NCBI RefSeq assembly: GCF_007994985.1
Contig: NZ_VOQF01000003.1
Location: forward strand, 62,001 to 126,000
Reading direction: 5' to 3'
From: Metabacillus litoralis
GTDB taxonomy: Bacteria; Bacillota; Bacilli; Bacillales; Bacillaceae
DNA length: 64,000 nt
Shown here: positions 8,213 to 36,128 of the stretch, piece by piece
Layout of the letters: every line of letters starts with the position of its first letter
Position numbering within the stretch: the first letter of the stretch is position 1
Made by a program: the position numbers and the translations under genes
Notes under the pieces: generated by a model
The model's database searches: none
What the model was told of the DNA's origin: nothing
The model's input: the letters and a program-made list of their open reading frames with translations, nothing else

Positions 8213-8863
8213 TTATCTAACAGCTTTTCTTCTCATCCATTGTGTTGCAGCCCATTTATCACCAATTAAAACTGGTGCACCACCATGTAAAGTAAGTTCA
8301 TTTAACGTTTGATCATTATAGAAATACTCAAAATAAACTGCCATCCCTTTTTTAGCTGAAACAGAAAAGTTAAGCTTAGGAAAATATGTTTCTCCTCCTA
8401 ATTCTACATCATTCAAATACATAACTAATGTACTAATTCTAGGATTACTAACAGCATTGCTTGTTGACGAAAAAAAATCAAAATGAGCTTTATACTCCTG
8501 ACCAATTTTGTAATTTAAAATTTGAAGTCCTTCAGCATGGTCAAAGGGCATACTCATAATCTGTGATAACCTCTTTTCAATTCTCGTGACAACTTCACTT
8601 TCTCCATCCTGAAAAAACATGCTACTGCTTGTTCTCAATTCTTCTGTACTTCGTGAATTACCTATTTTTGACCGTTGAATTCTATCTTTCGACAAGCTAA
8701 TAAGATCATCACACTCTTCATCACTCAATACATTACCTAACACAACGATTAACGGCTCTTCTATTTTAGCTATAATTGATATTTCTCTGTCTTCTGTTTG
8801 GATTACATTACCATCATGATTGAATATTGTTTGTTCTTTAATTGGTAATTCTTTATCATCCAT
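8213..8863 (-). CDS. 2-oxoglutarate/Fe(II) dioxygenase, prolyl 4-hydroxylase type
   Basis: 216 residues, the size of the Bacillus anthracis collagen-like prolyl 4-hydroxylase. The double-stranded beta-helix shows the iron facial triad: H and D in AHFDFF and the distal H in LTLHGGAP, plus the 2-oxoglutarate lysine in GDKWAATQW; RTSSSMFF is also typical. Likely hydroxylates proline in a protein substrate (collagen-like exosporium proteins or EF-Tu have been proposed in relatives). I use the ATG with GAAAG 6 nt upstream; a TTG two codons earlier is possible. Monocistronic with its own terminator. Confidence 0.87.
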   Translation of the reverse strand: MDDKELPIKEQTIFNHDGNVIQTEDREISIIAKIEEPLIVVLGNVLSDEECDDLISLSKDRIQRSKIGNSRSTEELRTSSSMFFQDGESEVVTRIEKRLSQIMSMPFDHAEGLQILNYKIGQEYKAHFDFFSSTSNAVSNPRISTLVMYLNDVELGGETYFPKLNFSVSAKKGMAVYFEYFYNDQTLNELTLHGGAPVLIGDKWAATQWMRRKAVR

Positions 8864-8869
8864 TGTCAA

Positions 8870-9425
8870 CTTTCATCAACCTCTTTAAATTTTAATAGTT
8901 AATTGTAGATTAAGCCAATCGCTTTTGATCAAGTTGATCATGTTAAGGTTGTTATGTACCATCCTTGGAAACATAAGCAGGCTTATATACTTAGTTCCTC
9001 ATTTGTTACAGATCTATCTTACTCTTTCTACTATTTAAATGCATTTTTATAATTTTACACCTAGCATTTGATTGTGACTACTATTTTATTTTTTATATGA
9101 TAAAACAGTAAATGTCAATTTTAACAATTTCTTCACTTACTTAAACAAAACAGCTCCTTCAGGTTATTATGACAAATTCTATTTAAAAGGTTATATTTCT
9201 CTTAGATAGCTCCACATTTATACTTTTGTCCAGTGCAAATTTATCGATTACGCATATACTATCATACACCTCAGCAGTAACAATTATATCTTCCTCATTA
9301 TATAGGACATTCTCAGGAGTGTCCTTTACTTTTTTTCTGTGTTGATTTGTTGTTCAAAACGTCCAATCAATCTATTAATTATCATCATATTATAAATTAA
9401 CCTCATCGTAAGGGAGGTGTAAAAT
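8870..9425. other. Intergenic region with an orphan terminator
   Basis: No coding region was found. It contains an orphan terminator-like hairpin at 9304-9337 (AGGACA ... TGTCCT followed by a T-rich tract on the plus strand) with no gene in front of it, and the ribosome site of the YjcZ gene at the right end. A short transcript ending at the orphan hairpin is possible. Confidence 0.5.
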
Positions 9426-9539
9426 ATGAGTGTAGGTGGATACGCAGGAGCTGGATTTGCTTTAATCGTAGTTCTATTTATCCTATTAATCATCGTTGGT
9501 GCTGGCGGATATGTCGGTGGTGGATACGGTGGTTATTAA
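9426..9539 (+). CDS. YjcZ-family small sporulation-associated protein (37 aa)
   Basis: MSVGGYAGAGFALIVVLFIL begins this 37-residue protein; the tail is glycine/tyrosine-rich (GAGGYVGGGYGGY). This Gly-Tyr plus single hydrophobic segment pattern is the YjcZ/YtxH-like small membrane protein family that is widespread in Bacillus and often present in many copies, with sporulation-linked expression known for some. AGGGAGGTG ribosome site at good spacing, and a strong terminator follows 9 bp after the stop codon, so it is a one-gene transcript. Confidence 0.88.
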   Translation: MSVGGYAGAGFALIVVLFILLIIVGAGGYVGGGYGGY

Positions 9540-9548
9540 ATAAGCTTG

Positions 9549-9592
9549 GCAGACTACTTTATTACTATAAAGTAGTCTGCTTCTGATCTTTT
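9549..9592 (+). terminator. Terminator of the YjcZ-family gene
   Basis: 13-bp perfect stem GCAGACTACTTTA / TAAAGTAGTCTGC, 6-nt loop, T-rich tail. Confidence 0.9.
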
Positions 9593-9612
9593 AACAGGTC
9601 ATTTTATATGTA

Positions 9613-9797
9613 GGCTCTGTTAAACTTTGTTGTTGATTTCCGTTACAGGCATTCGCTTTCCGCGGGCGGTCCGGGAGCCTCCTCGTAAGCTGCGCGCCTG
9701 CGGGGTCTCCCTATGACACGCTTCTCTCGCAGGAGTCTCATGCCTTCCACTCCAATCAACAATATGCTAAAAATCAACATTAAACTTTAACATAGCC
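9613..9797. mobile_element. 185-bp MITE-like element with 27-bp inverted ends and 8-bp target duplication
   Basis: Left end GGCTCTGTTAAACTTTG..., right end reading inward GGCTATGTTAAAGTTTA...; 23 of 27 positions match. The flanks carry the exact direct repeat TATATGTA (9605-9612 and 9798-9805). The interior is much richer in G+C than the surroundings and has no coding capacity. GG(C/T)TCTGTT-type ends with 8-bp duplications recall the IS6/IS26 family, so an IS6-like transposase may move it (inference). A solo left-end fragment is present near 60.0 kb. Confidence 0.82.
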
Positions 9798-9824
9798 TAT
9801 ATGTATACAAAAGATTTATTAGAA

Positions 9825-9864
9825 AAACAAAAAAGTGTATAAATCCCATATGGAACTTATACAC
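9825..9864 (-). terminator. Terminator of corA
   Basis: Minus strand: GTGTATAAGTTCC / GGGATTTATACAC stem with ATAT loop followed by TTTTTTGTTTTT. It lies 93 bp after the corA stop codon and just inside the flank of the MITE-like element. Confidence 0.88.
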
Positions 9865-9956
9865 CAATATTACTTGACTTTATATACGCTTTTTTACTGT
9901 ATTTGGTCTTTTTTTAAAATCTTACATCCTAGCCATAACTTACGAAAAAAACTCGA

Positions 9957-10895
9957 TTAAAAAAATCTTTTTCTCCAAAATATAATGGCAGTAACACTGG
10001 ATAATAGAAATGAAATAGTAATAGCAATTAAGAATGAATAATTATATTCTTGAAACGGGATAGATACATTCATTCCATAGAAGCTTGCTACCATTGTTGG
10101 TAGGGATAAAATAATAGTAAATGATGTTAAAAATTTCATAACAATATTCACATTATTGGAAATAATAGATGCAAATGCATCCATCATACCACTTAAGATG
10201 GAGGTATGTGTTTCAGCCATTTCAATTGCCTGCTGGTTTTCGATTATAACATCCTCTAATAATTCCTGATCATCTTCATACATTTTTAAATAATTGCTTT
10301 TTAACATTTTTTGCATAACAATATTATTTGATTTTAAAGAGGTTGTGAAATAAACTAAGCTTTTTTGTAAATTTAAAAGTGAAAAAAGTTCTTTGTTTCT
10401 CATCGATTGATGAAGCTCATTTTCAATTTTATCGATCTTTTTACTGATTTGTTTTAAATATCTTAAATATGAAGTTGACATTAAATATAGAATTTGAAAA
10501 GCAAATCTTGTTCGTTTATATGTGTGAAAGTTTTTTATTTTACCTTCTGAAAAAGCATGAAAAATTGGATTATCCTTTAAACAAACCGTAACAAAACAAT
10601 TTTTAGCAATAATTATTCCAAGTGGAATTGTATCATAAATAGATTGATCATTTTCATCCACAGATAATAAAGGGATATTTACGATAATTAATATATTCTC
10701 TCCATCTTTTTCAATTCTAGAACGCTCTTCTTCATCTAAAGGATCTCTTAAAAACTCAGGAACTATATCTAATTCTGATGAAACTTTCTGGATTTCTAGC
10801 TCATTAGGTGAAATTAAATTCACCCAGCATCCAGAAGAAATTTGATTATCTTCTCTTAATTGTCCTTCTTCATTTGACACTAAAATTTTTAACAT
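9957..10895 (-). CDS. corA: CorA-family divalent cation (Mg2+/Co2+) transporter
   Basis: 312-residue channel-forming transporter. A long cytoplasmic N-terminal domain with coiled helices (about residues 1-250) is followed by two C-terminal membrane segments, with the selectivity loop YGMNV just after the first, the defining CorA signature, and a short basic tail (FWRKRFF). Length is typical. AGGAGG ribosome site. It stands 28 bp downstream of a 40-codon reading frame that may act as a leader. Closest B. subtilis relative by architecture is YfjQ. Ion specificity cannot be read from sequence. Confidence 0.9.
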   Translation of the reverse strand: MLKILVSNEEGQLREDNQISSGCWVNLISPNELEIQKVSSELDIVPEFLRDPLDEEERSRIEKDGENILIIVNIPLLSVDENDQSIYDTIPLGIIIAKNCFVTVCLKDNPIFHAFSEGKIKNFHTYKRTRFAFQILYLMSTSYLRYLKQISKKIDKIENELHQSMRNKELFSLLNLQKSLVYFTTSLKSNNIVMQKMLKSNYLKMYEDDQELLEDVIIENQQAIEMAETHTSILSGMMDAFASIISNNVNIVMKFLTSFTIILSLPTMVASFYGMNVSIPFQEYNYSFLIAITISFLLSSVTAIIFWRKRFF

Positions 10896-11948: not shown

Positions 11949-12321
11949 TAAAATCAAGACCTTTCTGGTTAGATTCTAATAGCTTCTCACCCTTACTTTT
12001 TTCAGAAGAATATCCTTTGCCCTTTTTGAATGATTCTAGTGACTCACCTTCTTGAATTTCAAATAATTGTGTAAACTCGTTGATGACCATATCAATCGCT
12101 TTTAATTCACCTACTATAACTTGATGAATAGATTGAAATTCTGGTTGATCTAATTGTTGCTTTATTGTTGATCTTTTAACATTCATCATTTCTAAAAAAG
12201 CTAGTGCTCTTCCTCTTCGAAACGTTTTAGGTCCTCGGTGATGTGAAGGATGTCCTTTTCCTTTAAACCGATCTCCCCTAAGATGTTCTTTGTTTTTATG
12301 ATTTTCCAAATCTTCCTTCAT
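11935..12321 (-). CDS. Small basic protein coupled to the O-methyltransferase, possible regulator
   Basis: 128 residues; I cannot assign a family with certainty. The first 40 residues are rich in His, Arg, Lys and Gly (GHPSHHRGPKTFRRGRA), followed by a predicted helical region (FLEMMNVKRSTIKQQLDQPE ... ELKAIDMVINEFTQLFEI) and a charged tail. ATG with AAGGAG 8 nt upstream. Two TGTATACA octamers one helical turn apart sit directly before its ribosome site, suggesting tight control, perhaps by itself. It overlaps the methyltransferase gene. The arrangement suggests a regulator/enzyme pair, but this is inference. Confidence 0.7.
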   Translation of the reverse strand: MKEDLENHKNKEHLRGDRFKGKGHPSHHRGPKTFRRGRALAFLEMMNVKRSTIKQQLDQPEFQSIHQVIVGELKAIDMVINEFTQLFEIQEGESLESFKKGKGYSSEKSKGEKLLESNQKGLDFNEEN

Positions 12322-12336
12322 GAAAATCACTCCTTA

Positions 12337-12354
12337 TGTATACAAATGTATACA
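12337..12354. promoter_or_regulatory. Paired TGTATACA operator
   Basis: Two identical palindromic octamers TGTATACA, 10 bp centre to centre, immediately upstream of the AAGGAG ribosome site of the small-protein/methyltransferase pair. Spacing of one helical turn is typical of a site for a dimer of dimers. Confidence 0.6.
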
Positions 12355-12513
12355 ATTGGTCAACAAACTTTTAATTGTAGTGATTTATTCTATTTACACT
12401 AAATAGACGCTGAACATATATAAAGAAATCACCCATAAAGTCGAATAATCAAATATAATTCTAAACTAATAAATAGATAATAATGCTTACTCAAAATCAG
12501 TAAATCTGGAAAA

Positions 12514-12680
12514 GTTAGTCCGTTCCATTATGCAAAAGACGATTACTTTCAACTAGTTCTTAAAAATAGTATTAAAATAAAGAATCTATTGAAAAAAGCA
12601 AATAAACCCGAACTATTAGGCAAAAGATTAAGTGAACTAATTCCTAATAATTCGAGTTTTTATTAGCTTAAATACTTATG
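12514..12680. repeat. Hairpin-repeat family copy 1, decayed longer element
   Basis: Stem ACCCGAACTATTAGG (12606-12620) / CCTAATAATTCGAGT (12643-12657), with conserved flank ATTAGCTTAAATACTTATG to the right. To the left, blocks such as ACTAGTTCTTA and CCGTTCCATTA match, in inverse orientation, the composite element near 46.4 kb, so this is a shortened and diverged copy of it. The conserved flank supplies the stop codon of the adjacent acetyltransferase gene, and the hairpin probably ends its transcription. Confidence 0.75.
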
Positions 12681-13576
12681 ATTTTATTACTTTTAGTTAA
12701 CTTATAGTAATCCATTTTAGATTGTTCAACAAAACCACAAGATTTATAGAGATTTAAAGCGGTTTTATTCTTAACAGCCACTTGAAGCATGATTTCCTTA
12801 ACCTGTTTTTCTTTTAATTTATTTACTGCCTTTAATATTATCTCTTTTCCAAAACCTTTTCTTCGATATTGCGGCAAAACTCCTAATCCATAAATACCAC
12901 CTATACCATCATCAACACCTATTTGCACTTTTCCTACAACTTCCTCACCTAGCTCTACAATATAGATATCAACACCTCGCCTCGCTTCTTCTTCAGGAGA
13001 AATTAGGTCAGTAGCATCTAAAATCATATCGAAATAAATTGCGTTTTGTCTTGCAATTTCCAAAGCATCTTTATTAGTTGCTTTTCTAAATGTTAATACA
13101 TCTGATTCAAATTCATTTTTTATTAACTCTTTCTTTAAAAACATTTCATATTCAGAGTTATCATACTGTGCGCTAGTTTGCTTGATAAACTCTATCCCTG
13201 AAAAGGAGTTATGATCACTTAATAAAAGCATATCCTGTATTTTTCTTTTGTGCCACTCATCTTTTACTAAAGAAAATAACCGATTGAACACACCCATTCT
13301 TCTATAATGAGGATGAACCAAACCATTTACTTCTAAGGCTTCACCACTAAATTGACAAATACCAATATAGCCTATTAGAGTTTTGTCATCATAAAACATA
13401 AATTCATTAATTCTTTCTGTGTTATCTGATTTTACAGATGATTTCATTTTATAATCAAGTTCAAGCTTCAATGTTATATCTTCTTCCAAACAATATTTCA
13501 TAAGATCTTTTATGTCTTCATAATCTTCTTGGGTTAAATGACTTTTTAATTTTATACTCGGTTGTTGGATCTTCAT
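12668..13576 (-). CDS. Tandem GNAT-domain N-acetyltransferase
   Basis: 302 residues with two GNAT folds. N-terminal domain: acetyl-CoA loop region VHPHYRRMGVFNRLFS around residue 95. C-terminal domain: LGVLPQYRRKGFGKEI plus the LYKSCGFVEQSK end motif, a complete R/Q-x-x-G-x-G/A site. Substrate unknown. ATG with an AAGGAG somewhat far upstream (13 nt). The last codons and stop lie inside a dispersed hairpin repeat, so the C-terminus may have been altered by that insertion. Confidence 0.85.
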   Translation of the reverse strand: MKIQQPSIKLKSHLTQEDYEDIKDLMKYCLEEDITLKLELDYKMKSSVKSDNTERINEFMFYDDKTLIGYIGICQFSGEALEVNGLVHPHYRRMGVFNRLFSLVKDEWHKRKIQDMLLLSDHNSFSGIEFIKQTSAQYDNSEYEMFLKKELIKNEFESDVLTFRKATNKDALEIARQNAIYFDMILDATDLISPEEEARRGVDIYIVELGEEVVGKVQIGVDDGIGGIYGLGVLPQYRRKGFGKEIILKAVNKLKEKQVKEIMLQVAVKNKTALNLYKSCGFVEQSKMDYYKLTKSNKIISI

Positions 13577-23048: not shown

Positions 23049-24617
23049 TTAAAGTTTTTTTACTTCCTCATGGTGTAAATGCTCACGTAACAAAAACTTC
23101 TGAATCTTACCACTAGCATTTCGCGGTAATTCTTCTACAAAAATATATCGTCTTGGTCTTTTATAAGGAGCAAGTTTCTCAGAATTTTTACAAAACAATT
23201 CAAGTTCCACAGCTGTTACATTTTGTCGCTTTTTCACCACAATAGCAATTACACGCTCACCCCAAAGTTCATCAGGCTCTCCAAGAACAGCAACATCTAA
23301 TATTCCATCATGCTCATAGAGGTAATCTTCTACTTCACGTGGATAGATATTTTCTCCACCACTTATAACCATATCATCAACTCGATCTGCGACATATAAA
23401 TATCCATCATGATCTACATAACCTAAATCACCAGAATGATACCACCCTTTATATAATGCTTTTTCAGTTGCTTCTTCTCTATTAAAATACCCAATCATCA
23501 TACAAGGACCTTTTACTATAATTTCACCAACCTCACCTGCTGGTAGTATATCCTCTGGCTCTGATGGTCCATTATCATTCGGTTTAACAATTCGAATTTC
23601 GTGATTAAAACAAGCTCTTCCAGCTGATCCTGCTTTTGTAAGCTGCTCTTCTTTACCTAAAAAAGTTATTGCCGGCCCCATCTCTGTCATACCGTATGCT
23701 TGTACAAGGTCTATTCCTAACCTCTCTTTACAGGCATTAACCAAAATTGGCGCCATTGGGGCAGCTCCGTATAAACCTATCTTTAATGAAGATATATCAT
23801 AATCATCAAGTTTTTCTTGAAGTAGCATATTCCACATAGTAGGTGCAGCAAATAACATCGTTATCCGTTCCTCTTTTATTTCTTCAAGAACTTTGTTCGG
23901 ATCAAAATGATGGATAATCACATTTGTAGCACCAGCATGAACACGCGGTAAAAAACTACAATGAAGTTCAGCACAATGAAACATAGGTGCAGTTACTAAG
24001 CCCACATCTTCAGTTTTAATACCTATTGAACTTATACAAATTAAACTTTGTTCAACCATATCGCGATGTCGATGCATCACACCTTTAGGACGACCAGTTG
24101 TTCCACTAGTATACATAATAGCATAGGTATCATTTTCGGACAGATCTAATGAGGTAGGATTGGCAGGTAAAGCAAGCTGGGTAATTTCATGATAGCTTGA
24201 AGCATAGGAAGGGATTGGTTCATCAATTGACCAAAATGCCATATTTGGAAATTGTGCATGAACTTTTGTTATTTCATCTTCGAGAGCTTTCTCAAACACA
24301 ATTATCTTAGGTGCAGCATCTTTTAAAATATAAGCTATTTCTTCAGCTTTTAAACGAAAATTAATTGGATTAAGAATTGCCCCAATTTTTGCTGTCGCAA
24401 AATACACTGTAGCTAGTTCATACGTATTAAATAACAATGTTGATACCCTATCACCTTTCCTAACTCCTGCAGAAGATAAAGCATTGGCAAGTTTATTTAC
24501 CTGCTCATTCCACTGATTATAAGTCCAACGAATATTTCTAGAACGATCTACTAGAGCTAATTTGTTACCGAATTTCAACACTGTTTGTTCATATAATTCA
24601 CCGATTGTTAAGTACAC
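23049..24617 (-). CDS. AMP-forming acyl-CoA synthetase (fatty-acid:CoA ligase family)
   Basis: 522 residues. Adenylation signatures: YTSGTTGRPKGVMHRH (P-loop-like A3), YGMTEMGP (A5), YHSGDLGYVDHDGYLYV (A7) and the C-terminal lysine in NASGKIQKFLLREHL. Activates a carboxylic acid, probably medium/long-chain, to its acyl-CoA through an acyl-AMP. GTG start 5 nt after GGAGG; an ATG two codons earlier is too close to the ribosome site. A 13/14 match to the CcpA cre site lies 21 bp upstream, suggesting carbon catabolite repression. Exact substrate unknown. Confidence 0.88.
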   Translation of the reverse strand: MYLTIGELYEQTVLKFGNKLALVDRSRNIRWTYNQWNEQVNKLANALSSAGVRKGDRVSTLLFNTYELATVYFATAKIGAILNPINFRLKAEEIAYILKDAAPKIIVFEKALEDEITKVHAQFPNMAFWSIDEPIPSYASSYHEITQLALPANPTSLDLSENDTYAIMYTSGTTGRPKGVMHRHRDMVEQSLICISSIGIKTEDVGLVTAPMFHCAELHCSFLPRVHAGATNVIIHHFDPNKVLEEIKEERITMLFAAPTMWNMLLQEKLDDYDISSLKIGLYGAAPMAPILVNACKERLGIDLVQAYGMTEMGPAITFLGKEEQLTKAGSAGRACFNHEIRIVKPNDNGPSEPEDILPAGEVGEIIVKGPCMMIGYFNREEATEKALYKGWYHSGDLGYVDHDGYLYVADRVDDMVISGGENIYPREVEDYLYEHDGILDVAVLGEPDELWGERVIAIVVKKRQNVTAVELELFCKNSEKLAPYKRPRRYIFVEELPRNASGKIQKFLLREHLHHEEVKKL

Positions 24618-24637
24618 ACACATTCCTCCCTTTACTA

Positions 24638-27118: not shown

Positions 27119-28216
27119 TTACTTTTTATCGTGCACCTCTGCAATCACATTGATTAAACTTTGATCTCCAGGAGCATCATGACCAATTTCCCATATCATC
27201 ATCCCACCTAAGCCATTGTCACTAGCTAATTTGGTTTTTCTTTGTATGGTTTTTATACCATTATAATGATATATAACTTGATTAATAATTGCCCGATCTC
27301 GTTCTGAATTTGTACTGTTATGTTTAATGATTTCATTGTAAGCTAATTGAGCCTCATTTTCTTCCTCTGGCTGAGCATAAAAAGGAACACCTAATACAAG
27401 TTTATTTCTTGGAATATCAAGAGAATCAAACAAATTTACCCAATAATCTACAATATCCCGTGTGAAGGAAAAAGGTGATAAAAAAGCTGCATCATATTGA
27501 TCATCCCATTGCCCATCATACGCCATAATATTTACATGATCTACATATTTAAACATCTCTGTATCATATACAATGCTATTAACTTCCTCACCTGTTACAC
27601 TATGTACTTTTGAATAGACTGCAATTGAAAGCTCCTTTGATTCTTTATGAAGTTGCTTGCTTAACTCCTGGATAAACGCTACCAATGCCTCTGAATCCTC
27701 TTGTGTCCGTGGATGCTCAAAATCGATATCAATGCCGTCAAGAGCCTGCTGCTTTGTTATCTTCATTATTTCATTGATCAAATTTTCGCGGGAGAATTCC
27801 CGTGATATCGCCTCTTTAAAATATTCATAAGACGTACCTCCCTGAATATGATACCAGCCCCCAACTGCTAGAAATACCTTAGTGTTATCTTGTTCTGCCT
27901 TTTCTTTAATAGTTTGTAAATTTGCCATTGCTGCTTCTCCATTCATCAGTAGCTTTCCATCTTTGGTAGGATGTGCGAATGAAAAGATAACATGAGTAAG
28001 CCCTTTTAAATTGATTACTAAAGGATCACGAAAATCCTGCACATATCCAATAATCTTTGTTCCACCAATTTCAGGTGCTTCTTTTGTCATGATATAATTC
28101 TTTGAATTTTGTTCACTCTCTAATTTTTCATGAAACTTTGTAAAATAGGTCCCAAGCACAAATCCTCCAACAAAAACAAGAAAAGTAATAGAAAATAACA
28201 AGTATTTATTTTGCAA
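27119..28216 (-). CDS. Membrane-anchored GH18 glycoside hydrolase (chitinase-like), last gene of biosynthetic operon
   Basis: 365 residues. A signal anchor (LFSITFLVFVGGFVLGTYF, about residues 7-25) puts the catalytic domain outside the membrane. GH18 signatures: FLAVGGW and DGIDIDFEHP with the DxxDxDxE set D160/D163/D165/E167, so the acid catalyst is kept; MAYDGQWDD and MMIWEIGHD also fit. No LysM or chitin-binding domain. TTG start 6 nt after GGGGTGAG. It lies 38 bp after the GNAT-like gene in the same direction and is probably co-transcribed, which suggests a sugar-containing product or cell-wall target. Confidence 0.85.
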   Translation of the reverse strand: MQNKYLLFSITFLVFVGGFVLGTYFTKFHEKLESEQNSKNYIMTKEAPEIGGTKIIGYVQDFRDPLVINLKGLTHVIFSFAHPTKDGKLLMNGEAAMANLQTIKEKAEQDNTKVFLAVGGWYHIQGGTSYEYFKEAISREFSRENLINEIMKITKQQALDGIDIDFEHPRTQEDSEALVAFIQELSKQLHKESKELSIAVYSKVHSVTGEEVNSIVYDTEMFKYVDHVNIMAYDGQWDDQYDAAFLSPFSFTRDIVDYWVNLFDSLDIPRNKLVLGVPFYAQPEEENEAQLAYNEIIKHNSTNSERDRAIINQVIYHYNGIKTIQRKTKLASDNGLGGMMIWEIGHDAPGDQSLINVIAEVHDKK

Positions 28217-28254
28217 TCACAACTCACCCCCTTAGCATCATATTCTTCCCAACA

Positions 28255-29394
28255 TCAAAACCCTTTTTTCTTCGCAAGAGGCTCTACAATTTTATCCATT
28301 ATCAATTTAATGATCTTCCACGACAACTTCTTGCTTAAAGATAAATGTTTTTGATAAAAATAAGTGTATTCAATTTCTTGAACAGATCCACGTTTTCTTT
28401 TGAATTCACCAGCACCAGCACTACGATGTCCTATATAATGGTGACCCATAATCTGTTGAGTAATAAGAAACGAAAGAACCCTATATAAGCCATCGCTTTT
28501 CTCTCTTGTTGTTTCGTACCCTAAAATAGGTGTTGTTAATACATTACCTCTGATTAACATGCCTACAATTCCTAAGACAATGTCATTTTTACAGATAAGC
28601 TTAAAGCTAAATAATTGATTTAAATAGATATTTCGATAAAAGTCCAATGTAAACTGAGGATTATTAGCAGAGTATTTTTGTATATATAATGAATTATATA
28701 GCTCTCGAATTCTTTCAATATCCACTTCAGCTACTTGTTTCACTTGATAGTTCTTATTTAAAATTATCTTTTCATCTTGTTTGAGAAGTTTTTTTTGTTT
28801 AGCAGTAAGCTGGTTGTCTTGATTTAGATTAAATAAATAGATGGAGCGTGACATTACGTTTTGATAACCTATTTCTTGTAGAAACTTACTTAAGTTATGG
28901 TGTAAACTATTGTTTATAGATCGAAAAAGAATTGTATGTTGTTTAAATTTCTCCGTTAAAAAGAGCGTTAACCTCTGCAATTGGTCAAAGGAAAGTGAAG
29001 GTTCTAGTAAATTTGTTGATAAAAACCAATTATTCACAACAACTACTTTATTGATATTACTTTTTTGTAAAACAAAACCCAAACCGTCAATAATAGCTCC
29101 TAAAAGCTTTTCAAGGGGTTTATTATGAAGCTCCCATAGCTCTTCCTTTGCATAGCTTATATAGTGAGTAAAAGGTGACGCTACATATGAATTGGTAAAC
29201 TCAGTATCGTTAACTGAAAGTGGAAGGATAATATCATCAATCTCAACTAAGTAAAGATCAGCTTTAACATTTTCAATGAATTTAGATACCCCATTTTTCA
29301 TTAATGGCTCGAAATATTGTTTTATCAACCTACCATCTTTTATACTTCCCCAATCAATTTCATCCATTGTGAGCTCATCATACATTTTGATCAT
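28255..29394 (-). CDS. GNAT-like (FemAB/N-acyltransferase superfamily) protein of the biosynthetic operon
   Basis: 379 residues. The C-terminal half (about 200-350) looks like an acyltransferase fold: FSFKLICKNDIVLGIVGMLI, then LYRVLSFLITQQIMGHHYIG and HRSAGAGEFKRKRGS, resembling the end of FemAB/GNAT-like acyltransferases that accept large acyl donors. The N-terminal half is a second, poorly conserved domain. ATG with AAAGGA 8 nt upstream. The start overlaps the preceding gene by 17 bp. A role in transferring the activated acyl group to an amine is inferred from the operon; no substrate is known. Confidence 0.65.
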   Translation of the reverse strand: MIKMYDELTMDEIDWGSIKDGRLIKQYFEPLMKNGVSKFIENVKADLYLVEIDDIILPLSVNDTEFTNSYVASPFTHYISYAKEELWELHNKPLEKLLGAIIDGLGFVLQKSNINKVVVVNNWFLSTNLLEPSLSFDQLQRLTLFLTEKFKQHTILFRSINNSLHHNLSKFLQEIGYQNVMSRSIYLFNLNQDNQLTAKQKKLLKQDEKIILNKNYQVKQVAEVDIERIRELYNSLYIQKYSANNPQFTLDFYRNIYLNQLFSFKLICKNDIVLGIVGMLIRGNVLTTPILGYETTREKSDGLYRVLSFLITQQIMGHHYIGHRSAGAGEFKRKRGSVQEIEYTYFYQKHLSLSKKLSWKIIKLIMDKIVEPLAKKKGF

Positions 29395-30718
29395 GATGAT
29401 TTTCCTTTAAAAGACTTTCAATTCGCTTTAATTTCCGATCAGAAGGTTTTAGGTCGTAAGGAAGAAAAGAAAAAGAAGGTATAATTAATTCATATGATTT
29501 CCAAAGCTTGACCATTTCTGCCCTCACTTCCTCTTTCACTTCCTCTAGTTGTCCATTCACTTTTAAGTGAATATTAATTTTCAGCATATCAACTTGTATT
29601 ACTTTATATTCAACAATCTTATCTGAAGCAAACATTATAGCTCTTCTAATAAAATCTGGAAAAAGAGTACATCTATCAGTACTTGTATTTTTTAACCCTA
29701 AAAAAAGATCATCACAACGACCATCAATTCTTTGCAAGGCAAGAAAAGGAGATCCACAGGGACATGGTGCTTTGCTTTCAATTAAAATATCATTTAAGCG
29801 ATATCTAATAATAGGCTGTGTTGTTCTGGTAAAATCAGATATTATCGGTACAAATATTCCTTTTTCTTCATCTAAATATTCTTTATGTATCATGACAATA
29901 TCTTCATTCATATGAAGAGTTCCATGTGAACAAGTAGCCGCTAAAAATCCTTCTGTACTTTGATAAACTTGATGAAGCTTTTGATTATAAATCTTTTCAA
30001 TATAATATTTATCTATATCCTCTAACACTTCTGCAACTGAAACAATTTTACTTGGACTTACGTTAATTATTTTTTGCTCCTGCCACTCTGCAAGTAATCT
30101 TAAAAAAGAAGGAGGACCTATGATTATTGTAGGTTGAAGATCATTTAGCTTTTTTTGATGTGCTATAAACTCATCTAGTAAATCAAAATAGTGGAATGTT
30201 ATTCTTCCATTCTCTGTTGATGAGTACAAATTATTATTTGCTCTTAAAAAAAAAGCTATTTTATGATGCTCAAATAAATGTCCTGGAAGTAATTTAGCTA
30301 ATACTGTTCCAACCCACTTTGCTGATTCTTTATCACTGATAAGAAATATCCCTCTGTTTCCACTAGTACCTGATGAAAGACCCATTGAAATACCGTTAAG
30401 CTTTGGTGAGAAATCCCTTGTCTTTTCAGCTTCTAATGCAAGGTGATAGGCTTGATCTTTATTGATATTAGCCGTATTTAACGTATTGAAATTTTCCATC
30501 ATTTCACGTTTAGAAATAATCGGGAGATGCTCCAAGTTACCATCAAAATGCGTTATCTTAGCTTGATAAAACTCCCTATAAAAAGCTGAATGCTTAAAAA
30601 CAAAAGCCATATGCCTTTTTATTTGTATTTTTTGGTAATGCTCTAATTGTTTACGCGTCTTAAATTTTCTTAGATATTTTGTTTTAAAATAATGCTTCAT
30701 TATTTCTATTTTATTCAT
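29378..30718 (-). CDS. Coenzyme F390 synthetase/PaaK-like adenylate-forming enzyme
   Basis: 446 residues. Phosphate-binding loop MGLSSGTSGNRGIFLIS (S/T-G-T-S-G), a TEGFLAATC segment corresponding to the adenylation A5 motif, DFTRTTQPIIRYRLNDI and CPCGSPFLALQRIDGRCDD, all in the pattern of the CoF synthetase family related to phenylacetate-CoA ligase. It should activate a carboxylate as acyl-AMP. ATG with AGAAGGA; the longer frame upstream has no ribosome site. Overlaps the MBL gene by 8 bp and the GNAT-like gene by 17 bp. Confidence 0.82.
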   Translation of the reverse strand: MNKIEIMKHYFKTKYLRKFKTRKQLEHYQKIQIKRHMAFVFKHSAFYREFYQAKITHFDGNLEHLPIISKREMMENFNTLNTANINKDQAYHLALEAEKTRDFSPKLNGISMGLSSGTSGNRGIFLISDKESAKWVGTVLAKLLPGHLFEHHKIAFFLRANNNLYSSTENGRITFHYFDLLDEFIAHQKKLNDLQPTIIIGPPSFLRLLAEWQEQKIINVSPSKIVSVAEVLEDIDKYYIEKIYNQKLHQVYQSTEGFLAATCSHGTLHMNEDIVMIHKEYLDEEKGIFVPIISDFTRTTQPIIRYRLNDILIESKAPCPCGSPFLALQRIDGRCDDLFLGLKNTSTDRCTLFPDFIRRAIMFASDKIVEYKVIQVDMLKINIHLKVNGQLEEVKEEVRAEMVKLWKSYELIIPSFSFLPYDLKPSDRKLKRIESLLKENHHDQNV

Positions 30719-31562
30719 AAATATATCCTTCTTTTGCAAGATTCGCAGTTTTTTTACAATGAGTAGGTAAGATATCAATTTCTGGTGCTTGTTTTGATAA
30801 TTCATGAAGCTTCAATACATTATTCTTATAAGAATTGACATCTTCAATTAATAAATTTGCAATTTTATGAGGAAAAATAGCGTTTTCGTATGCTTCACTT
30901 ACCCAAACGGCATCAGCACAAAGTAATACTTTTTTACCACTATCAAGCTGAACAAAAAGTCCACATTGACCAATTGCGTGTCCAGTTAAATCAATTGCAA
31001 TCACTGAATTGTCACCAAAAAGATCTCTTCCTTCATAAAAAGGTCCATAGCTATTGTCTAACTTTATTAGATCACAATCATTAATGAACTTTATTCGTTT
31101 TTCAATATCTTTTGGTAATATCTCTAATAAACAGCCCTTCATCAGAGCCTGTAGGTTTGTTAATCCACTGATATTTGTAAACGCTTCTTTAGATGTTAGA
31201 ATATTTGCCTTAGGAAAATCCTTTAAGCCTGCTGTATGATCACCATGAAAATGCGACAAGATAACCGTTGAAATTTCGTCAGCACTTATCCCATCAGACT
31301 CCAATTGATTTTTTAACGACTGTTGCTCCCCAAAGTATACAGGTGTTAATTTCGAATAAATGGAATAAGGAAATTTTTTTGTTTCTTGTAAAAAATAAGA
31401 AGCATATCCTGTATCAAACAATATATATCCTTTTTTAGGATGTTTTAATAATGCAGCAGTAGCTGAAAATGTAATTGTTTTGAGAGACTTTCTCGGATTT
31501 ACGACTTTTTCTGGATGTGTACAATATCCGCACTCATATATTTTTAATGAATTAATTGGCAT
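30711..31562 (-). CDS. MBL-fold metallohydrolase (lactonase/AHL-lactonase-like)
   Basis: 283 residues. Dinuclear metal site LSHFHGDHTAG (H104, H106, D108, H109), a later metal histidine in DLTGHAIGQCGLF, the bridging Asp in LLCADAVW and the terminal His in LPTHCKK: the complete N-acyl homoserine lactonase-like set. Probably hydrolyses a lactone or thioester in the pathway of its operon; quorum quenching is an alternative but the context argues against it. GGTGGA ribosome site. Overlaps the SDR gene by 11 bp. Confidence 0.83.
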   Translation of the reverse strand: MPINSLKIYECGYCTHPEKVVNPRKSLKTITFSATAALLKHPKKGYILFDTGYASYFLQETKKFPYSIYSKLTPVYFGEQQSLKNQLESDGISADEISTVILSHFHGDHTAGLKDFPKANILTSKEAFTNISGLTNLQALMKGCLLEILPKDIEKRIKFINDCDLIKLDNSYGPFYEGRDLFGDNSVIAIDLTGHAIGQCGLFVQLDSGKKVLLCADAVWVSEAYENAIFPHKIANLLIEDVNSYKNNVLKLHELSKQAPEIDILPTHCKKTANLAKEGYIYE

Positions 31563-32544
31563 ATCGTTTCCACCATTCGGTAAATTTCTGTGTGCCTTTT
31601 TCTATCGTTACTGCTGGTTTATAACCTAATTCTTCTTTCGCTTTTTGAATGTCTAGTGTTTGCGATTGTGAAAGCACACTAACTGTATATCTTGTGAGAA
31701 TTGGTTCTTTTCCACCTAAGAAAATCATTGAGCTATATTCTAACAATTGTGCAATAAGAAAAGCCTGTTTGTAGGAAATCTCTTTATATGTAAATTCCTT
31801 TTCTAGCTGTTTCATAACATCTTCTAAAATGCTATATAAATTCACTCGTTCTCCATTTGTTATATTGTATTTTTCTCCTAATGTTTCATTACTCGAATTC
31901 ATACATAAAAGCAATGCATCGACAACATTTTCAACATACGTTAAGTCAATCTCTACATTGCCACTACCGATCTTTGGAAACATACCTTTTTCACAAACTT
32001 TAATTAACCTTGGTAATATTGCGTTATCACCTGGTCCAAATATTGCCCTAGGTCGAATGATGATTGTTGGAAGTCCTTCTTGAAATGCTTTGTCCACTTC
32101 AATTTCTGCAAGATATTTTGTTTTTGCATAATGATTCACAAACCTCTCTGGCAAGGAATCTGTTTCCTTCACATTTACTCTTTCATCATAATAAAATGAA
32201 ATACTTGGTGTTGAAACATGAATAAGTCGTTTTACATTTGCTTGTTTACAACCTTCAATCACATTTTTGGTTCCCTCAACATTCGCTAAATAAAAATCTT
32301 TATATCTTCCCCAAGGTGATGAAAGAGCACCACAATGGAAAACAAATTGTTGGTTCTGACACAACTGAAGAATTTGTTCTTTATTTTCTAAGGCTGCCTT
32401 TTTAAAATGTATACCCTTAGTTGATAGAAATCTACCAATATCAGAATTACGACCAACTCCTGTAACATGATAGCCTAATGATACAAGTCGCAGTGCTAAT
32501 TTTTGACCTAGAAAACCGGTAGCACCTGTTACTAAAACGTTCAA
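31552..32544 (-). CDS. NAD-dependent epimerase/dehydratase (extended SDR, OleD/3-beta-HSD-like)
   Basis: 330 residues. N-terminal NAD(P) site VLVTGATGFLGQKLALRL, NVEGTKNVIEGCKQA, a serine in LIHVSTPSI and the catalytic Tyr-Lys pair in NHYAKTKYLAE, then RPRAIFGPGDN. This order is that of 3-beta-hydroxysteroid dehydrogenase/OleD-like extended SDRs, which reduce beta-ketoacyl products of thiolase-type condensation. ATGA overlap (4 bp) with the ATP-grasp gene. Reduction of the KAS III product is the likely job (inference). Confidence 0.82.
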   Translation of the reverse strand: MNVLVTGATGFLGQKLALRLVSLGYHVTGVGRNSDIGRFLSTKGIHFKKAALENKEQILQLCQNQQFVFHCGALSSPWGRYKDFYLANVEGTKNVIEGCKQANVKRLIHVSTPSISFYYDERVNVKETDSLPERFVNHYAKTKYLAEIEVDKAFQEGLPTIIIRPRAIFGPGDNAILPRLIKVCEKGMFPKIGSGNVEIDLTYVENVVDALLLCMNSSNETLGEKYNITNGERVNLYSILEDVMKQLEKEFTYKEISYKQAFLIAQLLEYSSMIFLGGKEPILTRYTVSVLSQSQTLDIQKAKEELGYKPAVTIEKGTQKFTEWWKRYAN

Positions 32545-33707
32545 AGAATTTCACCATCCCAGCTGATATCACTTGTTGATTGTGTAAGTATGTTTTGTTT
32601 ATTTCTTCTACTTTCTGTCCACAGTTGGAAAATACTAACGAATTGATAAAAAAAGGGGGTCTTATCATAACTTCGATAAGTGATATCTTTATAGAAAATC
32701 AGAATATACATCCAGCGTTTAAATGTTTTTAGAGATTTTATTTGTTTTGTTCCGTACAGAAGTAAGCCTAGCTTTATTGCTTCCTTACTATTCTTTTTGG
32801 GATATATCAATTGTTTATTTTCGTTTGTGATAACATCAGTTAATTCATGATCGAATAAGTGTAAACCACTGGTTGCTCTCGGATTACATTCAATTGGAAT
32901 AGCACGGTCATATTCATCAATAATAAAATCAAATGAAATCTGCCCGGTAAAATAAAGTTTTTTCACGATAGCTGCAACTAACAATTCAATATCATTTCTA
33001 TCATGGTGTTCAAAAGAAAGTGCGGCACCTATACCAGCAGGAAATTCAGTTTTATAAACAGTATGTGCTACAATTATCCCTTGCTTCACAATTGAATAAG
33101 AACAATATTGCTCTCCCGTTATTTTTTCTTGAAGAAGCCATGTTGAATCAAAAGAAACATCGTCTGGTAATTCGTTAATAGAGTTTATAAATAAAACAGA
33201 ATCTCCAAACCTTGAAAAAACCCTTTTTGCAACTAATTCTCCTTTTACTTTATTCTCCAAATCTTTCAAAATCGTTTTATTTGTTAGTAACCAGGTTTCA
33301 GGAACCTTGTATCCTAGGTTCTTGAGCAAACTGATACACTTATATTTATTATGGAGCACTAGTAGCTTTTGAATATCATCAACAAAAACTTCACAATCTT
33401 CACTAAGCACCTTCCGATATTGTGCTATATAAAAAATTTCCTCACATGTTGGTAGGAGTAGATTAATATTGTTTTGTTTAATAATTTTCTTCAATGCTTT
33501 AATAAATTCTAACGTTTTATATTTAGGTGACGGTAAAAGGTAGAATTCCAAAATACTATTCGACTTTTTCGATATTGCATATGAAACACTATCTGCTGCA
33601 TATACTTCATATCCTGCTTTTTTGAACATTCTGCATAAATGAAGACTTACTGGAGCTCTTACACCTGTAATTAATATCTTTTTTGGCTTTGATAATTCAA
33701 TACTCAA
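32541..33707 (-). CDS. ATP-grasp ligase of the biosynthetic operon
   Basis: 388 residues. The N-terminal pre-ATP-grasp domain starts ILITGVRAPVSLHLCRMFKK, and the ATP-grasp core runs from GELVAKRVFSRFGDSV to the Mg-binding FDFIIDEYDRAIPIECNPRA, with Glu and Asn in the ECNPRATSG motif as in carbamoyl-phosphate-synthase-like ligases. Forms an amide or ester from a carboxylate via acyl phosphate. TTG start 9 nt after GGAGG, which lies within the end of the KAS III gene (11-bp overlap). Confidence 0.82.
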   Translation of the reverse strand: MSIELSKPKKILITGVRAPVSLHLCRMFKKAGYEVYAADSVSYAISKKSNSILEFYLLPSPKYKTLEFIKALKKIIKQNNINLLLPTCEEIFYIAQYRKVLSEDCEVFVDDIQKLLVLHNKYKCISLLKNLGYKVPETWLLTNKTILKDLENKVKGELVAKRVFSRFGDSVLFINSINELPDDVSFDSTWLLQEKITGEQYCSYSIVKQGIIVAHTVYKTEFPAGIGAALSFEHHDRNDIELLVAAIVKKLYFTGQISFDFIIDEYDRAIPIECNPRATSGLHLFDHELTDVITNENKQLIYPKKNSKEAIKLGLLLYGTKQIKSLKTFKRWMYILIFYKDITYRSYDKTPFFYQFVSIFQLWTESRRNKQNILTQSTSDISWDGEIL

Positions 33708-34686
33708 GAATTATTCCTCCAATAGATAAACCAGCAGACGTTCCTAGTAATAAGACATAATCTCCTCTTTTAATTTTATCTTGCTTTACCGCTTCATATA
33801 AAGCCATAGGAATTGACGCTGCAATCATGTTTCCATAGTTCTCAATAATACTCATAAATCGCTCTTCTGGAACTTCCAGTTTTTTTCGAATGATTTTCAT
33901 TGCGGATGCACTCGCTTGATGAGGAATAACAAGGTTTATATCAGACATTGATAAACTTGTATTTTTAAATAAACGCTCTAAAAAAGCTGGTAAATATTTA
34001 TATGACAATTTAAAGATCCCTCTGCCATTCATATTAAAAAGAAAATCCCCAGCTGTATTTTCATCATAAAGTCTCGGATGGATTTTAGTTCCTCCTCCTC
34101 TTATTTCCGATAAATGTGCACCTTCACTATACGTTTCCATATGCGAACTAATTATTCCAGATTGAGTAGTGGATTTCGTTAAAACAACAGCAACTGCACC
34201 ATCCCCAAACAAAATACTACTTTCCTTTTGAGACCAATCCAAGCCAACAGAAGATATTTCTGAAGAGATTAGTAACACATTTTTATATTTGCCTGCGTCA
34301 ATTGGGTATGAGATCATATCCAAAGCAGTTACAAAGCTTAAACATGTAGAGTTTACATCAAAACAAGGAATGCCAGATTGCTCAAGACCTAGCTGTTTTT
34401 GTATTAATGAAGCATTACAAGGAATTGCCTGTTCAACCGTCCCACTCGCACTGATTATACAATCAATATCAGAAAATGTAAGACCTGCCTGATCTAATGC
34501 ATTAATTGCTGCATGAGCCCCCATATATGAAGCTGTTTCTTCTTCTATAAAATACCGTTTCTTTACACCTGACTTTTTTTCGGACCAACCATTAGGAGCA
34601 GAGATTTTGCGATCTATCTCGTCGGAATGGACCGTTCTCTTTGGAACATACGAACCAATACCAATTATTTTTATATGACGTTTCAT
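33697..34686 (-). CDS. KAS III-like 3-oxoacyl-ACP synthase (FabH/OleA-like), first gene of biosynthetic operon
   Basis: 329 residues, thiolase fold. The catalytic triad Cys-His-Asn is intact: FDVNSTCLSFVTA (C115), VIPHQASA (H256) and IENYGNMIAASIP (N286); the end LLGTSAGLSIGGIILEY fits. Condenses an acyl-CoA/ACP starter with a second acyl or malonyl unit. It differs from housekeeping FabH in sequence and sits first in a seven-gene operon, so it is pathway-specific. ATG with GAGGTG 6 nt upstream; a GTG three codons earlier is disfavoured because it is part of that ribosome site. Confidence 0.85.
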   Translation of the reverse strand: MKRHIKIIGIGSYVPKRTVHSDEIDRKISAPNGWSEKKSGVKKRYFIEEETASYMGAHAAINALDQAGLTFSDIDCIISASGTVEQAIPCNASLIQKQLGLEQSGIPCFDVNSTCLSFVTALDMISYPIDAGKYKNVLLISSEISSVGLDWSQKESSILFGDGAVAVVLTKSTTQSGIISSHMETYSEGAHLSEIRGGGTKIHPRLYDENTAGDFLFNMNGRGIFKLSYKYLPAFLERLFKNTSLSMSDINLVIPHQASASAMKIIRKKLEVPEERFMSIIENYGNMIAASIPMALYEAVKQDKIKRGDYVLLLGTSAGLSIGGIILEY

Positions 34687-34884
34687 TACTAGCACCTCAG
34701 AAATATTTCTTATTCTATTATTATATTAGCTCTTTTGAACCTGTAAGATAAATCCTTTGAAATAAGATTTACTTTTAAAAACCCCTGATCTTAAGCTATC
34801 AAACAGTGAAAATGTAATAGGAAGATATTCATATGTTATTTTACCTCTTATTTCTAATTTGGAAAATACTATCTTTTAGCTATA

Positions 34885-34923
34885 ATAAAATAAAAATCCT
34901 AGAGTTAATTAAAACCCTAGGAT
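34885..34923 (-). terminator. Terminator of the YkuI-like gene
   Basis: Minus strand CCTAGGGTT / AACTCTAGG stem with one mismatch followed by ATTTTTATTTT. It separates the EAL gene from the biosynthetic operon. Confidence 0.78.
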
Positions 34924-34931
34924 GTAGAAAT

Positions 34932-36128
34932 TTATTCACTTACAAGAATATCAATAAAAAGATAGGCATTTTCAGTAATTGGATAAGAGAAGGTCTGAAC
35001 AGCCTCACCTGATTCAATATCACTATACGTATCAGATAGAATACCTTTTGATTCTTCGTCCATTCGCACTAAGTTTTCAATAAAGAATGGTCTCCAACTC
35101 CAATTTCTTCCTTTATAATCATTGTTCAGAATCCAAACGTCATTATTTCTCGTTACGTTTGAAGAAATTTGATAGCCATGATCATCTGTAATATATATTC
35201 TTATACAAAAGGAATCTAATTTTCCAGCAACATTTATAGTCCAACTATCCAAATCAAATACATCTTCCATTGGTAATTCCTTAATTAATTTCTCTACTTC
35301 AAAGTTTAAATGATAAGCAAGACGATACTCAGATTGATATTTCTTCCTTTCTAACTGGATGAAATTATAAATATCCTTTTTAAAGCGATCTTTAAAGGTT
35401 TTTTTCTCTAAGAATGAAGAATCTGGTTTTGCTAAGAAATATCCCTGGTAATAACGACCATTATTTTTCCAAGAATAGTGAAACTGTTCACGATCTTCTA
35501 CTGCTTCAAACAGCAATTCAGCACCAATTTTTCGGGATAATAATGCTAATGAGTATAAAACACCATCATATGAGGTTGAATGTTCATGATTTTTAAGTGC
35601 CTGAATATCAACTTTAAGAATATCTGGTTCAAGCATTGCTATTCGATCAAGATTGCTAGCCCCAATTCCTACATCATCAATCGCAATTTTCACACCCATC
35701 GATTTAAGCTTTTTACAAAGAGTTACAACCTTGTGCATAACCCCTTTAACATTATGCTCTGTCACTTCTATGACAATTTGAGAAAGATCTAAGCCCTTAT
35801 TTTTATATGTGATCAGTCTAGATAGGAGACTCTCATCTTGATCTATTAAAATATGATTAACATTAACATTAATAAATAAAAGTGTTTTCTCATTGTGCTT
35901 TAAAAGATATTCTAATGCTACTGTTTGTATATATCCATCCACTTGCAAACTAAATTCTATAGGTACAGTTGGATCATGGAAAAATGCTCCAAGACTCTTT
36001 ATTCCATTATTTGTTTCAATTCTCCCTAAAACTTCATAGCCTATAACCATATGACTGTCTGCACTAAAAATGGCCTGATAATAAGGCTTTACTTTACTCA
36101 AATCTGTTATGATATCTAATGCATTCAC
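34932..36128 (-). CDS. ykuI: EAL-domain protein with C-terminal PAS-like domain (YkuI-like)
   Basis: 398 residues. EAL fold: EVLGR in place of EALLR, FINVNVNHI, VIEVTEHN, the metal motif region IAIDDVGIGASNLDRI (canonical DDFGTG altered), DILKVDIQALK and LLFEAVED. The C-terminal 150 residues match the extracytoplasmic-like PAS fold of B. subtilis YkuI. YkuI binds cyclic di-GMP, but its phosphodiesterase activity has been hard to show; the altered motifs suggest a receptor here too (inference). Own terminator. Confidence 0.87.
   Translation of the reverse strand: MNALDIITDLSKVKPYYQAIFSADSHMVIGYEVLGRIETNNGIKSLGAFFHDPTVPIEFSLQVDGYIQTVALEYLLKHNEKTLLFINVNVNHILIDQDESLLSRLITYKNKGLDLSQIVIEVTEHNVKGVMHKVVTLCKKLKSMGVKIAIDDVGIGASNLDRIAMLEPDILKVDIQALKNHEHSTSYDGVLYSLALLSRKIGAELLFEAVEDREQFHYSWKNNGRYYQGYFLAKPDSSFLEKKTFKDRFKKDIYNFIQLERKKYQSEYRLAYHLNFEVEKLIKELPMEDVFDLDSWTINVAGKLDSFCIRIYITDDHGYQISSNVTRNNDVWILNNDYKGRNWSWRPFFIENLVRMDEESKGILSDTYSDIESGEAVQTFSYPITENAYLFIDILVSE

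Follow-up and report, generated by a model that had tools for sequence, protein, structure and literature searches.

The stretch of DNA analysed here—64,000 nucleotides of the Metabacillus litoralis genome (contig NZ_VOQF01000003.1, positions 62,001 to 126,000), hereafter the window—carries a run of seven genes on its minus strand, from 34695 to 27119, whose neighbours are interlocked. Along the run these genes encode a β-ketoacyl-acyl carrier protein synthase III (KAS III), an ATP-grasp enzyme, an extended short-chain dehydrogenase/reductase (SDR), a metallo-β-lactamase-fold (MBL) hydrolase, an F390 synthetase-related adenylate-forming ligase, a protein related to the GCN5-related N-acetyltransferases (GNAT), and a membrane-anchored glycoside hydrolase of family 18 (GH18) (Table 1). 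KAS III, SDR, MBL hydrolase, and ligase form a core that is found across phyla, and what this core and its changing partners might produce is the subject of this study. The source genome comprises 4.88 Mb on 75 contigs; the nearest named relative at the locus is Metabacillus crassostreae, whose ligase is 94% identical.

Table 1. Genes and signals of the operon region, in window coordinates
Feature	Position	Strand	Remarks
KAS III (core)	33697..34695	-	starts GTG 34695 or ATG 34686; PRK07204; Cys/His/Asn invariant; MxnB/CorB nearest solved relatives
ATP-grasp enzyme (Bacilli add-on)	32541..33707	-	PRK06849
Extended SDR, OleD-like (core)	31552..32544	-	Pfam Epimerase and 3Beta_HSD; best NCBIfam match OleD; 49/49 class loci
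MBL-fold hydrolase (core)	30711..31562	-	Pfam Lactamase_B; HxHxDH 90/90; 49/49 class loci
F390 synthetase-related adenylate-forming ligase (core)	29378..30718, alternative upstream start 30805	-	TIGR02304; C-terminal Lys 86/89
FemX/MprF-like double-GNAT transferase (Bacilli add-on)	28255..29394	-	
Membrane-anchored GH18, neighbour	27119..28216	-	Pfam GH18; 1/49 class loci, 7/80 named loci
Terminator-like hairpin between EAL gene and operon	34896..34923	-	pattern scan
Promoter-like hexamers CTTACA, 16, TATAAT before KAS III	34720..34747	-	pattern scan; consensus match only

Along the run the genes overlap by 11, 4, 11, 8, and 17 bp and are once separated by a 38-bp gap, so that the gene number, the strand, and every joint size given in a preliminary description of this DNA are reproduced exactly by the coordinates. 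The 8-bp overlap between the MBL and ligase genes depends on the ligase start at 30718, and the KAS III gene probably starts at the ATG, which has GAGGTG ahead of it. Pfam and NCBIfam models support the gene labels with the exception of the GNAT-like protein and the ligase, for which no Pfam model matches at E 1e-3. The catalytic residues said to be intact are so throughout the alignments: Cys115/His256/Asn286 of KAS III (ATG numbering; 118/259/289 from the GTG) in 95 of 95 sequences, the HxHxDH metal motif of the MBL hydrolase in 90 of 90, and DxxDxDxE of GH18 in eight of eight. The earlier view of one biosynthetic operon, with no polyketide synthase (PKS), nonribosomal peptide synthetase, or terpene gene among its seven genes, likewise holds.

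Whether the genes stay together in relatives—a check that the preliminary description had proposed—was followed through the ligase, which is present in 16 of 21 genomes of the genus (window genome included), in none of the seven listed genomes from other genera of the same family, and in 49 of an even sample of 299 genomes of the class Bacilli (E ≤ 1e-20). The surroundings of all 49 class loci were retrieved and searched for partner genes: SDR and MBL are present in 49, KAS III in 48, ATP-grasp in 37, and the GNAT-like gene in 21; a second SDR occurs in 18 and a GT28-type glycosyltransferase in 11. Ten of these loci, from one family with genomes of 1.8–2.2 Mb, show the order GT28-SDR-MBL-ligase-KAS and lack ATP-grasp. 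A further set, here called the named loci, consists of the best 80 of at least 586 stretches that match the ligase profile. It has the four core genes in order and on one strand in 73 cases, ATP-grasp in 73, and the GNAT-like gene in 50 (one on the opposite strand). In three of the 73 ordered cores (L087, L090, and L106) the SDR match covers only 61 residues; these are Brevibacillus loci where the short match sits between ATP-grasp and MBL, and the same genomes hold a second operon copy with a full SDR (L101, L092, and L093). The full seven-gene order is found in L060, L061, and L072, in L062 with an inserted GGDEF gene and the ATP-grasp gene split in two frames, and in L068—at a contig end—without KAS III.

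Because all 49 ligase-bearing class genomes keep SDR, MBL, and ligase adjoining, chance clustering was rejected. That the genes are mere chance neighbours, or part of a generally conserved chromosome order with no common function, is hence extremely improbable. Some flanking genes are also kept within Metabacillus (aldo-keto reductase, EAL, and MFS genes), yet the core is intact across different chromosomal settings and phyla where the flanks differ.

On the level of the phylum, 245 of 398 genomes match the ligase profile at E ≤ 0.001, most of them under its cut-off, and these weaker matches are probably generic PaaK-like ligases. The cut-off of the ligase family TIGR02304 is passed by nine of the 398 and by one of 14 control genomes. 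Four of the passing genomes lie outside the class (G620, G605, G646, and G459), and the loci of the first three were inspected; G620, a member of the Bacillota, shows KAS-ATP-grasp-SDR-MBL-ligase. A tblastn search of plasmid records gave 29 with a ligase relative, of which eleven were inspected together with one Escherichia coli chromosome. Bacilli plasmid records of Pontibacillus and Paenibacillus again bear KAS-ATP-grasp-SDR-MBL-ligase. In E. coli the core is accompanied by PAP2, FA_hydroxylase, and FA_desaturase genes and lies, in the chromosome inspected, between narI and tRNA-Tyr genes; this island occurs in 672 of 5,426 complete genomes, 671 of which hold at least 80% of it. Paracoccus and Ketogulonicigenium combine the core with TetR and—as annotated—sulfotransferase genes, Rhizobium has the core followed by DUF3419 and then GNAT, Paraburkholderia adds ATP-grasp, GNAT, and one further gene, and Pseudomonas FeN3W carries the core without ATP-grasp. 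A Fusobacterium record (2.1 Mb, filed as plasmid, no annotation) reads SDR, GT21, 215-residue protein, SDR, MBL, ligase, KAS; a Sericytochromatia genome (L137) carries the core as well. The DUF3419 gene of Rhizobium presumably recalls BtaA. Fusobacterium (L141:4196-4843) and one Bacilli genome (L053:13210-13845) each encode, between the core and GT21, a protein of 211–215 residues without a Pfam match; identity within this pair is 40%. The plasmid collection gave no match to a near-identical copy of the operon.

The trans-phylum unit is thus made of four genes—KAS III, SDR, MBL, and ligase—to which ATP-grasp and GNAT are add-ons. The genes do stay together in relatives, and very widely, so the proposed check does not refute the operon; a unit of seven genes is not supported.

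The condensing enzyme of this core scores 549.8 bits against NCBIfam PRK07204 (cut-off 402). For its comparison, 95 KAS sequences were aligned: the window protein, one from each of the 75 named loci (of 80) whose KAS is nearly complete, and 19 from other loci. According to an excerpt of one study, the catalytic base is Glu105 in PpyS and Glu117 in OleA, with Val94 at this place in MxnB and CorB (PMC4578411); an excerpt of another states that Glu117 is followed by Pro in all aligned OleA proteins but two (PMC7064751). The position was located via the alignment with CorB, whose opening part has no gaps and pairs window residue 91 with CorB 94. In this column 73 of the 95 sequences have Ile and the other 22 Leu, always with Pro next. 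Since the glutamate is replaced in 95 of 95, the KAS III is, judged by this column, not an OleA/PpyS-type enzyme, and OleA-type condensation—part of the preliminary description—was rejected; the same column deprives it of the Glu105 equivalent by which PpyS/PyrS pyrone synthases are recognised. The phage collection holds 16 records matching the KAS, and the ten listed matches are 27–31% identical.

All 93 aligned SDR sequences keep the catalytic Tyr and Lys. The SDR was rightly called OleD-like insofar as OleD is its best NCBIfam match, yet with 228.6 bits against a cut-off of 580 the score does not place it among the OleD 2-alkyl-3-oxoalkanoate reductases. The ligase belongs to TIGR02304 (F390 synthetase-related proteins) with 544.8 bits over residues 32–466 and a cut-off of 251.9, a family whose name states no established function; against the true F390 synthetase model TIGR03335 it reaches only 34.7 bits (cut-off 458.7). 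The window protein keeps the SSGTSG loop, the TE motif, RLND, and the C-terminal Lys, whose roles we take to be those in the ANL adenylate-forming enzymes, so that it can be counted among these; Glu and Asp are conserved in 89 of 89 rows and Lys458 in 86, the other three being gaps. The phage collection contains no relative of the ligase. Elsewhere, a distant TIGR02304 ligase overlaps a probable membrane protein gene with the core absent (L181:8554-11152 and L182:8252-10871), an arrangement that represents a second setting for this family.

Together these results bear on an Ole-type pathway with OleA-like condensation. The oleABCD/oleACD systems, which lead to long-chain olefins and β-lactones, have in common with the operon a thiolase-fold condensing enzyme, a related extended SDR, an adenylate-forming enzyme, and a hydrolase in one operon; the nearness of the SDR to OleD models and the functional order of condensation, reduction, and adenylation, matching oleACD, speak for such a pathway, and PMC7064751 mentions an ole-type cluster that includes a glycosyltransferase. 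However, the KAS lacks the OleA glutamate, the SDR stays under the OleD cut-off, the ligase is a PaaK/F390-type enzyme—OleC was not among its NCBIfam matches—and the hydrolase is an MBL enzyme instead of OleB. We therefore regard an Ole-type pathway as quite unlikely.

The nearest solved relatives of the KAS are, by sequence, MxnB and CorB from myxopyronin and corallopyronin biosynthesis, which also carry an aliphatic residue at the place of the OleA/PpyS glutamate. In a tree of 29 rows, small in sampling, with long branches for MxnB, L055, and L145 and with two chains transcribed by eye, 25 core KAS and MxnB are split from three FabH by a branch with 100/100 support. This relation might suggest a two-chain condensation toward a pyrone- or lactone-like signal that is tuned by a lactonase-like MBL enzyme, and pyrones are described as signals in an excerpt of PMC4578411. 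The nearest named models of the MBL hydrolase are indeed quorum-quenching lactonases. Its scores against the N-acyl homoserine lactone lactonases AttM and AiiA, 82.9 and 55.5 bits, are nevertheless far under the cut-offs of 390 and 375. Furthermore, the operon has no PKS context to supply the chains but reductase, hydrolase, and ligase partners instead, pyrone closure requires a keto group that the SDR would reduce, and no conserved receptor or regulator gene accompanies the core. A signal of this kind is in our view unlikely.

Turning to the add-ons, the ATP-grasp enzyme scores 407.3 bits against PRK06849, barely over the cut-off of 406. It has the ATP-grasp fold in common with the amino-acid ligases PylC, RizA, and BacD, from which it differs by an identity of only ~15%, and its scores with GAR synthetase, PurK, and biotin carboxylase are almost as high. 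As searching PDB sequences with the GNAT profile yielded a single match, at chance level, the GNAT-like protein was compared by its predicted fold. The prediction displays two GNAT domains in a FemX-like arrangement, that is, the FemABX/MprF architecture. The aminoacyl-tRNA-dependent transferases FemX, MprF, and Sbb17 have this architecture over nearly the whole operon protein at ~10% identity, which does not imply tRNA use by the latter; the acyl-CoA-using N-myristoyltransferase has it as well, at a lower Z of 13.4. By this predicted fold, the GNAT-like protein of the preliminary description is better called a FemX/MprF-type double-GNAT transferase. The presence of ATP-grasp and FemX-like genes in Bacilli suggests an amino-acid-type decoration.

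Some partners of the Bacilli loci vary alongside. A classical short-chain dehydrogenase family lies near the core in 42 of 112 loci (e.g., L118:11332-12312), and in the 49 class loci it is nearly exclusive with GNAT—GNAT only in 18, dehydrogenase only in 15, both in three. In three Bacilli loci GNAT is followed by a Rieske oxygenase gene, recognised through Pfam in L088 and through similarity in L046 and L049.

GH18 is a clear member of its Pfam family (158.8 bits), and the preliminary description had it act outside the membrane as part of the system. This role was rejected on distribution: within the class sample it lies near the core only at the window locus itself (one of 49), and among the named loci in seven of 80, five of them titled Metabacillus and two Bacillus sp. 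It moreover remains beside cores without ATP-grasp and GNAT (L063 and L064), and on these genomic grounds is probably a local neighbour or bystander. The same distribution argues against a modification of the wall or of wall precursors, in which ATP-grasp and the FemX-like GNAT would add amino acids to a lipid-linked precursor and GH18 would trim glycans outside. Of the 49 class loci, 48 lack GH18, many lineages have the core but neither ATP-grasp nor GNAT, and we know of no place for KAS III, SDR, and MBL in wall assembly. Such a role is very improbable.

The reading that we favour, with somewhat better than even confidence, is that of a biosynthetic operon, composed of a portable four-gene core and a Bacilli-type decoration pair, whose product is a decorated small molecule derived from fatty acids. 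KAS III would take an acyl thioester supplied by fatty-acid metabolism and condense it with a further carbon unit—malonyl-acyl carrier protein, or a β-keto thioester as in MxnB—to yield a β-keto thioester, whose keto group the OleD-like SDR would reduce. Hydrolysis of the thioester, or of a lactone, by the MBL enzyme would release a free hydroxy acid, which the F390-related ligase would activate as acyl-adenylate and transfer to an acceptor. No carrier-protein gene fits into the joints, so the carriers of fatty-acid synthesis would serve. In Bacilli, the ATP-grasp enzyme might then make an amide-type bond and the double GNAT might attach an aminoacyl or acyl residue, resulting in a lipid with an amino-acid decoration; in other lineages different partners would take over this last stage. 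The sequence of condensation, reduction, hydrolysis, and re-activation is one of several possible orders and would, by analogy, parallel the Ole pathway in its logic, though with enzymes of other families. Hence, the condense-reduce-activate-join outline of the preliminary description survives, without its GH18 role and its OleA comparison, and in a wider scope than it had been given.

Its lipid-like product finds support too, by inference from the genes that in several lineages accompany the constant core and are of chain-modifying or head-group type: PAP2, FA_hydroxylase, and FA_desaturase; GT21, GT28/EryCIII-like, and DUF3419; and sulfotransferase. This combination of a constant core with lineage-changing partners suggests that a lipid backbone receives exchangeable decorations. 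More specifically, and only as a tentative proposal that we consider doubtful, the core might make a ceramide-like hydroxy lipid backbone without serine palmitoyltransferase, and the lineages might decorate the same acceptor with sugar (GT21, GT28), 3-amino-3-carboxypropyl (DUF3419), sulfate, or aminoacyl groups (ATP-grasp and FemX-like GNAT), E. coli using hydroxylation, desaturation, and PAP2. If this were true, one lipid class would be spread across Bacilli, Fusobacterium, Proteobacteria, and about one eighth of complete E. coli genomes.

For the core proteins of 25 loci spread over these lineages, pairwise distances correlate in all six gene pairs (Mantel r 0.86–0.90; 0 of 2000 permutations reached the observed r for each pair), which fits a joint inheritance of the core, although the test cannot tell this from species divergence—the first of several points that weigh against the favoured reading. 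In the class sample, the stretch fetched for L165 holds no KAS. Among the seven nonconforming named loci, two cyanobacterial ones (L132 and L133) have the ligase alone, L123 and L128 give no MBL match, and L134 gives no SDR match and a short KAS; L068 and L131 are short or cut contigs. Locus L134, from Paenibacillus woosongensis, shows a KAS match of 154 residues and then MBL with no SDR match in between (8788-9992), either a shortened operon or an assembly fault. Outside the class, G605 and G646 have distant TIGR02304 ligases (~290 and 282 bits) without a core; in Pseudomonas Leaf58 the four core genes are scattered over ~10 kb; and on pMPPla107 of Pseudomonas amygdali M301315 (L142) the ligase has no annotated KAS, SDR, or MBL in its stretch. 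As to the chemistry, the nearest named models of the MBL enzyme are not thioesterases, and the order given for the second to fourth steps is a guess, as the ligase could act first and supply a starter acyl-CoA. On pMPPla107, hypothetical genes surround the TIGR02304-type ligase and, with it, a distant ATP-grasp relative (L142:9968-11266 and 12186-13556).

Around the operon, the signals of Table 1 come from pattern scans that yield 60 promoter-like sites in the window against 69 in shuffled sequences—i.e., no enrichment—and eight terminator-like sites against 5.2. Between GH18 and the next gene, which encodes an aldo-keto reductase, neither a same-strand terminator-like site nor an inverted repeat was found, so the transcript may continue into the latter. 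The window contains no RNA family at gathering score and no tRNA gene. Genes of cyclic-di-GMP turnover are repeated neighbours of the operon in Bacillaceae: an EAL/YkuI gene lies upstream (34932-36128), as it does in L060 and L061, EAL relatives of 26–27% identity stand beside the operon in L074 and L077, and a GGDEF gene is located downstream in L062 and perhaps in L070 (judged by gene start only). Downstream, a long gene for an AMP-forming acyl-CoA ligase (23049-24623) lies on the strand of the operon and has counterparts of similar length at a comparable place in L060, L061, L063, L064, and L072; it could supply acyl-CoA to the KAS or reflect mere synteny.

No description of this operon was found in the literature searched, outside of which most subscription papers lie. 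Within it, with few subscription papers covered, no paper was found on 'F390 synthetase-related', on the short name of TIGR02304, or on F390 synthetase together with a biosynthetic gene cluster; no paper joined most of the component names, and the names of the E. coli partners gave unrelated papers only. In excerpts of three papers, F390/CoF synthetase appears as annotation mentions, one of them amid the discussion of a fatty-acid-synthesis gene cluster (PMC2649909, PMC9823363, PMC5467263). As far as these searches go, the enzymes are of known kinds and their arrangement is undescribed.

A core that is intact from Bacilli to Proteobacteria should make a product that is useful to its hosts. With the core constant and the partners varying, a comparison of the products of two lineages would separate the atoms made by the core from those added by the partners. 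The operon also offers a route to the function of TIGR02304, a family whose name states none.

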